Source: Arenimonas sp.
Lineage (GTDB): Bacteria; Pseudomonadota; Gammaproteobacteria; Xanthomonadales; Xanthomonadaceae
Length of the DNA: 35,314 nucleotides
Assembly: GCF_019459675.1 (NCBI RefSeq)
Contig: NZ_JAIBFH010000078.1
Coordinates: 1-35,314, forward strand
Direction: 5' to 3'
Both the position numbers and the translations under genes were made by a program. This document shows positions 3,153 through 19,797 of the stretch, one piece after another. How positions within the stretch are numbered: position 1 is the stretch's first letter; every line of letters starts with the position of its first letter. Below the pieces are notes generated by a model. That model was not told the DNA's origin. It did no database searches and saw only the letters and a list, made by a program, of their open reading frames with translations.

Positions 3153-3463
3153 GGGCCTATAGCTCAATGGTTAGAGCAGGGGACTCATCGAAAGGTGCCG
3201 CCGCTCCGTAAGGGGCGGACGGGAACGGGATGAATTCAGGGAAGCCTCAGCGGTTCGGCCGGTGGTAACCCTGAGCCAAGCCGGCGGTACACCGCCGGAA
3301 GGTGCAGAGACTACCTGAGGGCTACAGCGCCCTTGATCACAGGCTCGAGCGTCCCGCACCCCACCCGCGCACGCGGAGGGTGAAGAGATAGTCCGCGCCG
3401 GGGGGAAATCCCCGGGATACGCGAATCCCTTGGTTCCAGGTTCGAGTCCTGGTGGGCCCACCA
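3153..3463 (+). tRNA. tRNA-Ile2 (anticodon CAU), interrupted by a group I intron
   Basis: The exons are 3153-3188 and 3424-3463. Joined, they fold as a standard tRNA: acceptor GGGCCTA/TGGGCCC, D stem GCTC/GAGC, anticodon stem GGGGA/TCCCT with loop CTCATAA, T stem CCAGG/CCTGG with loop TTCGAGT, discriminator A and an encoded CCA. The anticodon is CAT. The anticodon arm pattern (GACTCATAATC) matches E. coli ileX rather than the methionine tRNAs, so C34 is expected to become lysidine (by TilS) and the tRNA to read AUA. The intron sits directly after anticodon position 36. The 3' half also serves as the attachment site of the following island. Confidence 0.95.
3189..3423 (+). ncRNA. Group I self-splicing intron in the tRNA-Ile anticodon loop
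   Basis: The 235-nt insert has all landmarks of a tRNA group I intron of the Azoarcus type. P1 forms from exon CAU plus C GAAA GGUG, with the conserved U-G wobble at the 5' splice site. P2 is a 7-bp hairpin with a GUAA loop. P3 pairs CGGGATG (3226-3232) with CGTCCCG (3350-3356). P4 pairs TCAGGG (3236-3241) with CCCTGA (3269-3274). P6a is CCGGCGG/CCGCCGG. P7 pairs AGACTA (3308-3313) with TAGTCC (3389-3394). J8/7 is AAGAGA, P8 is CACCC/GGGTG, and P9 is CCGGGG/CCCCGG. The intron ends in the expected terminal G. An extra hairpin (3314-3343) lies between P7 and P3. It has no open reading frame for a homing endonuclease. Confidence 0.95.
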
Positions 3464-3467
3464 CATT
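3441..3467 (+). other. attL: integration site in the tRNA 3' end
   Basis: P4-type integrases commonly recombine within the T-arm and acceptor 3' strand of a tRNA gene and leave the tRNA intact. The integrase gene starts 177 bases downstream, as expected. The segment TTCG..T.CTGGTGGGCC.ACCAC recurs imperfectly at 19772-19797. Confidence 0.7.
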
Positions 3468-3640: not shown

Positions 3641-4852
3641 ATGCTCACCGACACCAAGCTCCGTGCGCTCAAGCCCCGGGAGTCCATCTATCGGGTGGCG
3701 GATGCCAACGGCTTGGCGATTGAGGTCCGTCCCAGTGGAGCGAAGCTCTGGCGCTACCGCTACCGCTACGCCGGCAAGGCGAGCATGGCGTCCTTGGGCG
3801 AGTACCCGGCGGTAAGCCTGTCCGAGGCCCGTTCCCAGCGTGACCGCATGCGAGCGCTGCTCCGCGGTGGCGCCAATCCCGTCCAGGTAGTCCGCGCCGA
3901 GCGCACCGCAATGCTGGAGGAGGCCGGCAACACGTTCGCGTTTGTCGCCAAGGAGTTGTTGGCGAAACGGACTAGCGAGGGGTTGAGTCCTGGGTCGGCC
4001 AGACGGGAGTTGCGGCAGATCGAGAAGGATCTGGCGTCGATTGGGTCGCGCCCGGTGGGCGACATCACCGCCAAGGAACTCCTGGCCGCCCTTAGGAAGC
4101 TGGAAAAGCGCGGGATCAAGGAGACGGCGCATCGGGCTCGCTCTCTGGCCGGGCGAGTGTTCCGCTACGCCATCGCGACGGGCAGGGCAGCCAACAACCC
4201 GGCCGTGGACCTAACCGGCGCGCTGGAACAGCCCCAAAGCCGCCACTTCGCCAGCATTACCGACCCCGCGAAGATCGGGGACCTAATGCGAGCCCTGCAT
4301 GGCTACTCAGGCTCAGCCGTGACCCAAGCCGCCCTCAAGCTGGCGCCATTGGTCTTTGTGCGCCCTGGTGAACTGCGGAAGGCGCAATGGGCAGACATCG
4401 ACCTAGAAGGTGCTGAGTGGCGCTTCACCGCCAGCAAGACAGGCACTCCGCATATCGTCCCTCTCTCAGTCCAGGCCGTGGACGTGCTGACCGAGCTTTA
4501 CCCGTTGACCGGCCGCCGCGAATACGTGTTCCCCAGCGTGCGTGGAGCCAGCCGCCCGATGAGCGAGAACACGGTCAACGCAGCGCTGCGAAACCTGGGC
4601 TTTGACCGAGAAATGATCACGGGACACGGCTTTCGGGCGATGGCCCGAACGATCCTGGACGAAGTGTTGGGATTCCGGCCCGACTTCATTGAGCACCAGC
4701 TTGCGCATGCCGTTCGGGACCCGATGGGCCGGGCATACAACCGAACTGCGCATATGCCCGAACGCAAGAAGATGATGCAGGCGTGGGCCGACTACTTAGA
4801 CAGCCTGCGCACCGGAGGGAACGTCGTTCCCATCCGCGCCCGATCCGGCTAA
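3641..4852 (+). CDS. int: Site-specific tyrosine integrase, P4 type
   Basis: This 403-residue protein inserts and excises the island at the tRNA 3' end. Residues 1-85 form the DUF4102-type arm-binding domain (LTDTKLRALKPRES, GLAIEVRPSGAKLWRYRYR). A core-binding domain spans about 95-190. The catalytic domain carries Arg241 (RPGEL), His329-x-x-Arg332 (HGFRAMA), His356 (QLAHA) and the nucleophile Tyr366 (AYNR), so the active site looks complete. The ATG at 3641 gives the usual N-terminus (MLTDTKL), although no clear Shine-Dalgarno sequence precedes it. It reads away from the tRNA, and phased repeats occupy the gap. A hairpin follows the stop. Confidence 0.96.
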   Translation: MLTDTKLRALKPRESIYRVADANGLAIEVRPSGAKLWRYRYRYAGKASMASLGEYPAVSLSEARSQRDRMRALLRGGANPVQVVRAERTAMLEEAGNTFAFVAKELLAKRTSEGLSPGSARRELRQIEKDLASIGSRPVGDITAKELLAALRKLEKRGIKETAHRARSLAGRVFRYAIATGRAANNPAVDLTGALEQPQSRHFASITDPAKIGDLMRALHGYSGSAVTQAALKLAPLVFVRPGELRKAQWADIDLEGAEWRFTASKTGTPHIVPLSVQAVDVLTELYPLTGRREYVFPSVRGASRPMSENTVNAALRNLGFDREMITGHGFRAMARTILDEVLGFRPDFIEHQLAHAVRDPMGRAYNRTAHMPERKKMMQAWADYLDSLRTGGNVVPIRARSG

Positions 4853-6250: not shown

Positions 6251-6339
6251 CAGTTCAAACCGCGCCTAGGCTGATCCCCGAACACCGGGCACCTTCCCCG
6301 GCTGGCGCGGCTCTCATTGAAGGGCGCAGAGGTGCGCGC

Positions 6340-14854: not shown

Positions 14855-15232
14855 TCATGCCTTCGGAGGAGGCGGGCAGGGATAGGCAGCAACGAGTGCG
14901 TTGAGGAATCCAGTGCCCGCTGCGGCATGGCCTTGGTTGGGGTTGTCGCCCGCCCACTTCAGAAATACCCGTGCCATCTGGAGATTGGTCACGCCCGCCG
15001 GAACGCAAAGTGGGTCGTAATCGAGCGCCCAGGCATTCGCGTAATAACCATCCACAAAGCCGTTGACGTACAGGATGCAGGCGCCCTGATTCCCGTTGAT
15101 GACCCCTGCCGAGCTGAGGCCGGCGCACATGGCCTCCAGCTTTTCGACCGTCAGGCTTTCTGCGCTCGCATCGGTTGTGATGCCACACATCACCAGCCCG
15201 ACCACCAACACCTTCAGAAGCTTGTTATTCAT
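14855..15232 (-). CDS. Rap1a/Tai-family-like periplasmic protein
   Basis: The product has a signal peptide (LLKVLVVGLVMCGITTDASA) followed by about 100 residues with the Rap1a-type pattern: CAGL, then ACILYVNGFVDGYY, CVPAGVTNLQMARVFLKW, and a final LVAAYPC. Rap1a proteins are periplasmic immunity proteins against a type VI secretion amidase in Serratia; many family members are of unknown role. No effector gene is adjacent. The second ATG (15232) has GGAG six bases upstream and is preferred to 15235. It is transcribed against the surrounding genes, as typical for cargo. Confidence 0.78.
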   Translation of the reverse strand: MNNKLLKVLVVGLVMCGITTDASAESLTVEKLEAMCAGLSSAGVINGNQGACILYVNGFVDGYYANAWALDYDPLCVPAGVTNLQMARVFLKWAGDNPNQGHAAAGTGFLNALVAAYPCPPPPKA

Positions 15233-15318
15233 CATTCACTCCGTCTCATTGCCGCTGTCTAGATCCCATCTCTGCCGCGGCACGGTGCCTGGGCAAGAGT
15301 CGTTAACCATTGGCGACT

Positions 15319-15675
15319 CTACTCGCACCCGACTCCATCGCCATCCCGATCCAAGTGCTTCCCGTATCCGGGATCGCCCCGCCTCACAGGCGCCGCCCCA
15401 GCCTGACGGGCCTCGGTGCAATTGGCGTATCGGGTAGTCGAGCTGGCTCTGGCCGGCCGTGCCCCGTACAAGGCCGCGGGCGGCGGTGCCGGCCGGGCGT
15501 CCGCCTTCTTGCCGTGGCAGTGGTAATCCCCGGTCGAACGGTTGGTGTGGCAACCCTCTGCGTTCGTCGCGCCCCTAGGGCTCAAGCTGGGAGCGCGGTT
15601 CAAGTAAGGGGGCCGAGGGATTGGCCGGAACGGGCCGCTAGATGCGTTGGCGCTATAAGCATCCGGGGCCCCCAT
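15319..15675 (-). CDS. Excalibur calcium-binding-domain protein with a CHxNxxTGxYHCH segment
   Basis: The C-terminus (YANCTEARQAGAAP, then GDPGYGKHLDRDGDGVGCE) is a clear Excalibur domain, with the DRDGDGVGCE calcium-binding loop. Upstream is a histidine/cysteine motif (GCHTNRSTGDYHCHGKK) often found with it. Family members are usually secreted, but this frame has no signal peptide and hits a stop just upstream of 15675. The start is therefore uncertain, or the gene is N-terminally truncated. The ATG at 15675 shares the CATG palindrome with the opposing start at 15674. Confidence 0.7.
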   Translation of the reverse strand: MGAPDAYSANASSGPFRPIPRPPYLNRAPSLSPRGATNAEGCHTNRSTGDYHCHGKKADARPAPPPAALYGARPARASSTTRYANCTEARQAGAAPVRRGDPGYGKHLDRDGDGVGCE

Positions 15676-16123
15676 GTCGAAAAAGGACTTCCTCCCGCTC
15701 CTGCCAGCCGGTTTTCACGCGCTCGACTGGGCGGGCTTGGAGGCGCTTTGCGTTGCCCCCTTTCCCACATCGTCGTCGCGTGGGGCGCTGGCCAGTCAGT
15801 TGCACGCGTTCCTAACGGAGCTAAGGGGCTACGGGCTTTCGGGGCAACTCTGGATCGATGGCTCATTCGTAACGGACAAGCCGGACCCCAGCGACATAGA
15901 CCTTATCTGGGTGCCCGATCCCGGCTGTTTGCCTCAGTTTCTCGCCAACGCGGGGCGACTGGATCAGTTGTTCGGGACGACTCGGGGAGCCAAGGCAATT
16001 TTCCAATGTGATGCGTACTTCGTGGATCCTGCCGACACCAACAATCTAGCCTATTGGCGCGGGTTGTTCGGTTTTTGCCATGACGCGCAGACCCCGAAAG
16101 GGCTAATCTTGGCGACTCTATGA
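15674..16123 (+). CDS. Nucleotidyltransferase-fold protein, DUF6932 type
   Basis: The 149-residue protein contains GSFVTDKPDPSDIDL (63-77), the G-S-x9-D-x-D metal-binding signature of the polymerase-beta-type nucleotidyltransferase fold, and a later CDAYFVDP that may supply the third carboxylate. The N-terminus (LPLLPAGFHALDWAGLEALCVAPFP) resembles DUF6932 proteins. These are unstudied, but similar minimal nucleotidyltransferases act as toxins or antitoxins. No Shine-Dalgarno sequence is seen; TATAAG at 15654 could be a -10 giving a very short leader. The gene overlaps the next by four bases (ATGA). Confidence 0.75.
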   Translation: MSKKDFLPLLPAGFHALDWAGLEALCVAPFPTSSSRGALASQLHAFLTELRGYGLSGQLWIDGSFVTDKPDPSDIDLIWVPDPGCLPQFLANAGRLDQLFGTTRGAKAIFQCDAYFVDPADTNNLAYWRGLFGFCHDAQTPKGLILATL

Positions 16124-17058
16124 ACAAGATCGCATGGCTGGAGCAGCAGATCGAGAAGGCCAGTGCGCTGGTGCCGCAAGGCAGCCTGGTGGCTGAGCCA
16201 TCTACGCCGTTTGCAGGTCTCGCCGCTGAATCCATGCGCGCACACCTGGCAGAGCTGCAGCATGACCTCTATCTGGCCAAGGCTGAGCGCGCCAAGGAGC
16301 TCGTTACTCTTCGATTGATTGGTCCTCGCCTTAATGCGGGGGCCATCCCGCTTGTTCTTCTGTCCAGGCTTTCGGACCGCTTTAGCCGCGCGATGGAGGC
16401 GATTTCCTACAAGCTGCAGCACGGGATAGATGAGAAGCGGTCGTCTGGCGAGCTGCAAAGCATCTTGGATTTGAGACTAGCCGACGTGGTGGCTGGGTCA
16501 ACGCAGTTGGTGATAACCGGAAATGTGACACCTGATCTGGTCGGGGATTCGCTCTTGGAATCCAGCCTAAAAGCAACTTTCCAGCTCCTGCATTCGGATG
16601 CGGCGGGGCTGGCCGCGAGTGCATTGAGCGTAGGGCCGAAAGCATCGCAGCAGGTTGGGAAGCTGTTGACGGAGCTTGAGGCAGAGAAGTGCAGCGTTGA
16701 GCTTGCTTGGACCGATCCCTCTGATGTGGAACATCGATGGACTGCATCTCCATATAGGGTGGCCGAACTAAGGTACAGACTCGCGCAGCTAGCGGAGGTT
16801 CCACCAGAGGTTCTGATGGTTTTCGCTGAGGTCGAGCTTCTAAGCGCCAGCGGACGGATTACCCTTCGAACAAGCGAGGGTGACAAGATCGCAGCCAAGT
16901 ATCCGCGTGAATTGTATCCTGCCGTCCAAGAGCTACACCTTGGACAGAAATCAGAGTTCAAAGTGCTTCTGAACCGAATGCACAATCCAAACACCGAGCA
17001 AGACGTTCAAAGCTATACGCTGCTCAGCGTGGGGCGGGCACTTCCTCGAGTTGAGTGA
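16120..17058 (+). CDS. Hypothetical partner protein of the DUF6932 gene (312 aa)
   Basis: I do not recognise this protein. Residues 1-70 are helical and probably coiled-coil (IAWLEQQIEKASALV, MRAHLAELQHDLYLAKAERAKEL). The middle (VITGNVTPDLVGDSLLESSLKATFQLL) and the C-terminal half (EVLMVFAEVELLSASGRITLRTSEGDK) look like mixed alpha/beta domains. No Walker, HEPN (R-x4-6-H), nuclease or membrane motif was found. Translation is coupled to the nucleotidyltransferase by ATGA, so both probably act together. Codon use is more AT-rich than in the phage-like part, which suggests independently acquired cargo. Confidence 0.72.
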   Translation: MNKIAWLEQQIEKASALVPQGSLVAEPSTPFAGLAAESMRAHLAELQHDLYLAKAERAKELVTLRLIGPRLNAGAIPLVLLSRLSDRFSRAMEAISYKLQHGIDEKRSSGELQSILDLRLADVVAGSTQLVITGNVTPDLVGDSLLESSLKATFQLLHSDAAGLAASALSVGPKASQQVGKLLTELEAEKCSVELAWTDPSDVEHRWTASPYRVAELRYRLAQLAEVPPEVLMVFAEVELLSASGRITLRTSEGDKIAAKYPRELYPAVQELHLGQKSEFKVLLNRMHNPNTEQDVQSYTLLSVGRALPRVE

Positions 17059-17099
17059 CGATCTCACTCCGTGAGCTAGCCGCGTGTGAGGCTCACCGC

Positions 17100-17372
17100 A
17101 TGCCCATCTGCGGAACTCGCTATCGACTCAAGCTCCGAGTGATCGGCCACCCCGATCGGGTGCTGATCGCCCACGCTCTTTACCGGGAGGTCAGGGACCC
17201 AGACCCGGTTGGCGGGCCAGGACGCCTGATCTCACGCCGGCTGGTCCATGCACTACTAAACGGCGCACCGGTCTGGGTTCTGCATGATTCGCTCCAGGAG
17301 GCCGTCGGCGCCCCGTTCGTCGTGCTTGAGCATGAGCGGGTGGATGGGCCGCGGTGGAGCAACACGAGTTAG
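17100..17372 (+). CDS. Small hypothetical protein (90 aa) following the DUF6932 pair
   Basis: Unrecognised basic protein (YRLKLRVIGHPDRVLIAHALYREVRD). Two starts are possible. GTG 17055 overlaps the preceding stop (GTGA) and would give 105 residues; ATG 17100 has TGAGG eight bases upstream and gives 90. I prefer 17100. It may be the third gene of the cargo operon. No motif or membrane segment is seen. Confidence 0.5.
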   Translation: MPICGTRYRLKLRVIGHPDRVLIAHALYREVRDPDPVGGPGRLISRRLVHALLNGAPVWVLHDSLQEAVGAPFVVLEHERVDGPRWSNTS

Positions 17373-18171: not shown

Positions 18172-18408
18172 GTGAACATTGGCCCCGCTCATCGAGCGGC
18201 GGTGTTGAGGCTTAAAGAGGTACAAGCTCGGGTCGGCCTCAGTCGGTCGACAATCTACGAGCTCATTGGGAACTCTAAGCGGGCAGATCCATCGTTCCCG
18301 CGCTCATTCAAGATTGCCAACGGCGGCAGTGTTGGATTTCTGGAGTCCCAGGTTGAAAGTTGGATCCTTCAGCGTAGCGGAGTGGTGAATACCCCCACAG
18401 ACGACTAA
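18172..18408 (+). CDS. AlpA-family regulatory protein (second copy)
   Basis: The 78-residue protein has the classic AlpA pattern: VLRLKEVQARVGLSRSTIYELI, then SFPRSFKIANGG, FLESQVESWILQR. It probably controls the following initiator gene and excision. The start is GTG 18172 with GGAG seven bases upstream. It is more typical of P4/CP4-like elements than the first copy, and the two differ widely, so they were probably brought by different ancestors. About 178 bases separate it from the next gene. Confidence 0.9.
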   Translation: MNIGPAHRAAVLRLKEVQARVGLSRSTIYELIGNSKRADPSFPRSFKIANGGSVGFLESQVESWILQRSGVVNTPTDD

Positions 18409-19771: not shown

Positions 19772-19797
19772 TTCGGTTGCTGGTGGGCCACCACTTT
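19772..19797 (+). other. Candidate attR: imperfect copy of the tRNA-Ile 3' end
   Basis: TTCGGTTGCTGGTGGGCC followed by ACCACTTT aligns to tRNA positions 3441-3467 with 22 matches in 27 columns and one gap; the longest exact run is CTGGTGGGCC. It lies between the last island gene and the first host gene. The imperfect match means decay or coincidence remain possible. Confidence 0.45.

Follow-up and report, generated by a model that had tools for sequence, protein, structure and literature searches.

A PDC-M63 pair in a tRNA-gene island of Arenimonas: a minimal nucleotidyltransferase with a partner that appears modular

The window analyzed here, a stretch of 35,314 nucleotides of Arenimonas sp. 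DNA, contains an integrative island that carries two adjoining genes, referred to below as A and B (Table 1). Its insertion site is the 3' end of a tRNA gene with the anticodon CAT. A relative from the same genus (G911:C74; L172/L178) provides the corresponding empty site, and att cores are found at both ends of the element, with CTGGTGGGCCCACCAC at 3449-3464 and CTGGTGGGCCACCAC at 19780-19794. The right core is missed by a pattern search because of a 1-nt deletion there. The integrase, the empty site and the two cores substantiate the tRNA island proposed in a first-pass annotation of this DNA. Its description as P4-like is right only in part; what speaks for it is AlpA, an int-alpA RNA, and an island gene with weak matches to YagK/YfjJ_C and to replication proteins. 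Right after the anticodon, the target tRNA gene contains a group I intron of 235 nt (Rfam RF00028, 54 bits), which is present in some genomes of the genus and absent in others. The spliced exons were read as tRNA-Met(cat) by ARAGORN; by analogy with known intron-bearing tRNAs, we take the target to be tRNA-Ile2.

Table 1. Features of the window discussed in the text, with positions in the whole stretch.
Feature	Position	Strand	Basis or remark
tRNA gene, anticodon CAT	3153-3463		group I intron at 3189-3423
Integrative island carrying the pair, 16.3 kb	3464..~19794	.	empty site in relative, att cores at both ends
Integrase	3641-4852		in island
int-alpA RNA (RF02996)	6259-6324		in island
Rap1a-immunity-like protein	14855-15235	-	neighbor of the pair
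Excalibur-domain protein	15319-15675	-	neighbor of the pair
A, DUF6932 / PDC-M63A, minimal nucleotidyltransferase (predicted), 149 aa	15674..16123	+	Pfam, PADLOC, model, motif
B, PDC-M63B, 312 aa	16120..17058	+	PADLOC, phrog_6603, model
B residues 1-58, N-terminal helical hairpin	16120..16293	+	model helices 3-17 and 30-58; kept when the remainder of B is exchanged or lost
B residues 59-224, alpha/beta domain	16294..16791	+	model; invariant G126-S127, G172, W197
B residues 225 to about 312, C-terminal IF-1-like OB fold	16792..17055	+	Foldseek
ORF3, 105 aa, overlapping the end of B	17055..17372	+	
AlpA	18172-18408		in island

The reading frames of A and B share 4 bp, which agrees with the translational coupling previously proposed for them. 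The more AT-rich codon use ascribed to these genes was likewise found, with GC3 at 0.71 in A and 0.62 in B and higher, at 0.80-0.88, in the host genes that flank them. ORF3 had been considered as a possible third member of the set. Its relatives are present in six other genomes of the same family, and the five that fall within a set of 150 such genomes are all without B; distant relatives were found in 3 viral contigs. Because relatives occur in same-family genomes that do not have the pair, we excluded ORF3 from it, and it is probably a real island gene.

The AlphaFold model of A, based on an alignment of 58 sequences, has a pLDDT of 94.3, and its best PDB match is 7ae2, the MNT antitoxin of a HEPN-MNT pair (probability 0.98, E 6.6e-3, TM 0.39). 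The signature GSFVTDKPDPSDID corresponds to G63-S64-x9-D74-x-D76. All four of these residues are invariant in 58 homologues, as are R36, K69 and K142-G143, and a third acid, D113, is conserved in 98% of them. In addition, a relative of A in locus L129 exceeds the Pfam NTP_transf_2 cut-off. The MNT fold and the invariant signature bear out the earlier assignment of A as a nucleotidyltransferase with an intact G-S-x9-D-x-D motif. Judged by its sequence and its model, A is a minimal nucleotidyltransferase of the MNT fold whose catalytic site is intact.

In the model of B (pLDDT 91.9, also from a 58-sequence alignment), an N-terminal helical hairpin is followed by an alpha/beta domain and, at residues 225-307, by an OB fold similar to that of IF-1, which Foldseek matched to 4ql5 (E 7.9e-4, probability 1.00). 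Positions fixed in the family alignment are mainly structural-looking (G126, S127, G172 and W197, with R65 at 98%). R65 and S127 are the only conserved polar positions, and no conserved catalytic-looking residues were found in this alignment. Because the catalytic residues of A are 98-100% conserved and the conserved polar positions of B are limited to these two, A resembles an enzyme and B a binding module. Two identities were tried for B and rejected. The best viral fold match of whole B is a DUF6575 phage protein (3.2e-15), and a DUF6575 domain has been reported in one defence system (PMC9519451). At the sequence level, Pfam detected DUF6575 neither in B nor in the family listings of the 58 homologues, and a search for DUF6575 relatives yielded one sub-threshold match; the likeness is one of fold only. 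A HEPN identity was rejected because no HEPN is present among the listed fold matches of B, the window B has no Rx4-6H motif, and no histidine column is conserved in its family. The pair thus shares with the type VII MNT-HEPN (HepT-MntA) systems the MNT fold and the GS..DxD motif of A but differs from them in B, and the first-pass annotation was correct in seeing no MNT-HEPN arrangement here.

Profile searches place both proteins in a catalogued system. A matches Pfam DUF6932 (8.5e-29) and PADLOC PDC-M63A (1.3e-37, residues 1-145 of 149), and the adjoining B matches PADLOC PDC-M63B (5e-68, residues 4-304 of 312) as well as phrog_6603 (3.6e-50). Both PADLOC profiles are matched nearly end to end, gene order and coupling are identical to those of PDC-M63, and no feature excludes the window pair, whose B is 14-35% identical to the B of other members. 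No Pfam or NCBIfam family was found for B in profile searches. It had been regarded as unrecognized, and an unknown family is ruled out by the PDC-M63B profile that covers it; PDC-M32A, considered as a relative of B, gave weak matches only. By these profile matches, A and B constitute the PDC-M63 module, an already catalogued candidate defence system, and the pair itself is not new. Of the earlier proposal of a candidate new defence or toxin-antitoxin-like pair, the candidate status is upheld by the MNT fold, the two-gene coupling and the carriage by prophages and islands; the newness is lost to the listing of PDC-M63A and PDC-M63B in PADLOC. A literature search found no paper naming DUF6932 and a single one naming PDC-M63 (PMC12409345, 2025), in which deletion of PDC-M63AB from a prophage of E. 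coli NILS69 left the plating of 10 virulent phages unchanged.

A gene-neighborhood survey of DUF6932 had been suggested in the first-pass annotation. When viral contigs and one genome per species were surveyed with A alone as the query, a B match was located directly downstream of A in 98 of the 103 loci found, so the partner co-occurs with A elsewhere. An initial scan of genome contigs with B alone gave no matches. The pair spans Pseudomonadota, Bacteroidota, Nitrospirota and Thermodesulfobacteriota, and a 4-bp overlap is the commonest spacing between the two genes (43 of 82 non-redundant pairs). No constant third neighbor gene was found among 123 flanking proteins from the species genomes. 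PDC-M63 is patchy in the family of the window because B is present in 1 of 150 same-family genomes, that one being the window's own. Of 399 genomes sampled from the phylum, 17 contain DUF6932, and among 5,426 complete E. coli genomes two close alleles are present in 18 and 96. The pair is real and widely shared.

What is new here, as far as can be read from sequences, is that the partner of A is modular: the hairpin stays, and the remainder is exchanged for HsdR, an Xre-peptidase of PD-lambda-2B type, Xre or an OB fold, or is absent. Such loci are a minority of A loci. The L129 partner joins its hairpin (8.5e-7 against the profile) to HsdR and is encoded downstream of an HsdM-HsdS fusion in the same operon, and the L118 hairpin is joined to an unknown part of ~100 residues, with the PDC-M63B profile matching residues 4-57 (1.4e-8). 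The partner consists of the hairpin and an OB fold in L124 and L131, of the hairpin and Xre only in L166, and of the hairpin, Xre and an M78 peptidase in L137, L141, L142 and L167. The PD-Lambda-2_B profile matches L142 (1e-75) and L167 (2e-86), and L137 and L141 weakly. In L122, L133, L134 and L148, the partner is a coil alone of 63-72 aa. Copies of A with exchanged partners retain GS..DxD, including those of L118, L124 and L131 and, as read from the sequences, those of L148, L166 and L167. Homology of the hairpin is significant in profile searches for L118 and L129; for L142, L167, L133 and L134 it is suggestive, with E values of 0.2-3, though they score among the highest of 11,486 ORFs. At least nine changes of partner class, three of them for coil-only partners, are required on a tree built from 85 A proteins, from whose drawing the window's own copy is absent as a collapsed duplicate; weak support for many inner branches makes this count approximate. 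For L133/L134, the coil-only pair from two species of Emticicia, dN/dS is 0.21 for A and 0.09 for the coil, values that indicate purifying selection. This pattern points to A and the hairpin as an invariant core with an exchangeable C-terminal part.

Two of these settings resemble known systems. The locus L129:2759-9044 is a type I restriction operon in which DUF6932 lies between the HsdM-HsdS fusion and the hairpin-HsdR fusion, the operon position of PrrC. PrrC is an anticodon nuclease guarded by a type I restriction system, whereas A is a nucleotidyltransferase by its motif and fold; one such locus was seen, and no hsd genes were found beside the window pair. In L142 and L167, DUF6932 replaces the HigB-like gene in PD-lambda-2-like loci, and the start of a further ORF, beta-like as read by eye, follows. 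PD-lambda-2 consists of a HigB-like protein, an Xre-peptidase and a P4-beta-like protein, and its likeness to our family lies in the DUF6932 homologues beside PD-lambda-2B-type proteins in these two loci. By contrast, the window pair begins with a nucleotidyltransferase and not a HigB-like gene, and its B lacks both an Xre and a peptidase domain and is not matched by the PD-Lambda-2_B profile.

The variety of partners also bears on whether A could work as in CBASS, synthesizing a nucleotide messenger to be sensed and acted on by the C-terminal module of B. A nucleotidyltransferase co-encoded with an OB-fold partner would suit such signaling. We nevertheless consider it very improbable, as hairpin-only partners could not serve as receptors, B contains no effector enzyme, and A, at only 149 aa, has MNT and not CD-NTase as its nearest fold and gave no CD-NTase family match.

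In the lambdoid phages mEpX1, vB_EhrS_59 and PhiR30_1, the pair is located directly behind the repressor gene cI on the same strand, and in a Klebsiella prophage it likewise follows a repressor gene on the same strand. Of 101 unique loci, 17 have a gene for a CI-like repressor no more than 250 nt upstream, and 21 have one when the limit is set at 1.5 kb. Compared by position alone, the lambdoid copies resemble lambda rexAB; the window copy differs in that it lies in an island and not behind a cI gene. This location, together with the IF-1-like OB fold of B and the single deletion test without a phenotype, would be compatible with a prophage or island regulatory pair that has no part in defence and tunes, for example, repressor activity or host translation in lysogeny. 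Such a role appears quite improbable to us, given that the rexAB position is classically the site of exclusion genes and that the partner has been exchanged into an hsd operon and PD-lambda-2-like loci, both of them defence contexts.

We tentatively prefer, at slightly less than an even chance, a model in which A is an active enzyme held by a hairpin lock, the C-terminal module of B is a sensor or regulator, and the pair is an exclusion or abortive-infection system. A would be the active, growth-arresting component and would nucleotidylate host RNA or protein. The co-translated N-terminal hairpin of B would pair with A and keep it silent until the alpha/beta and OB module sensed infection and released it, and prophages and islands would carry the pair to arrest phages by exclusion or abortive infection. 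A, and not the payload, is favored as the active part because this would more easily explain why the payload-free coil-only pair is kept under purifying selection. The conserved coupling of the two genes, the contrast between them in catalytic conservation, the retention of the hairpin through the partner-class changes on the A tree, the place of a HigB-like gene taken by A in L142 and L167, and the CI-like repressors close upstream of the pair all suggest the same model. Against it stand the hairpin homology of the Xre-type and Emticicia partners, which falls below significance by profile, and the NILS69 deletion without an effect on virulent phages (PMC12409345).

The strongest counter-evidence to the hairpin lock comes from analogy. 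In HEPN-MNT pairs the MNT protein is the antitoxin, the solved structure nearest in fold to A belongs to an antitoxin that AMPylates its partner and thereby silences it, and in PD-lambda-2 it is B, not A, that is toxic when expressed, and A rescues (PMC9519451). The main rival, a type VII-like pair, takes up this analogy: A would be an antitoxin that nucleotidylates and silences B, the alpha/beta-OB part of B would be the toxin, and MntA AMPylating HepT would be the precedent. The best PDB matches of A include AMPylation complexes (7ae2/7ae9), and the invariant S127 of B may accept a nucleotide. However, coil-only, Xre-only and OB-only partners contain no plausible toxic domain, yet the active site of A is retained beside them, and the coil-only pair is under purifying selection. 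B itself, moreover, does not belong to HEPN, and none of its conserved residues looks catalytic. We regard the type VII-like reading as unlikely.

PDC-M63 is a catalogued yet unexplained candidate, and its kept hairpin and exchanged partners offer a testable logic of enzyme, lock and sensor. The modular partner, which is not visible from a single sequence, is the informative feature, and its exchange links PDC-M63 to the experimentally active PD-lambda-2 and to type I restriction. The cI-operon position makes temperate phages relevant, and the phages used so far were virulent only (PMC12409345). In its broadest form, the hairpin-lock model would make DUF6932 a toxic nucleotidyltransferase with a lock attached to sensors that can replace one another (alpha/beta plus OB, Xre, Xre-peptidase and HsdR), a possibility that we hold with some doubt. 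If true, one toxin would be wired to many different infection alarms.
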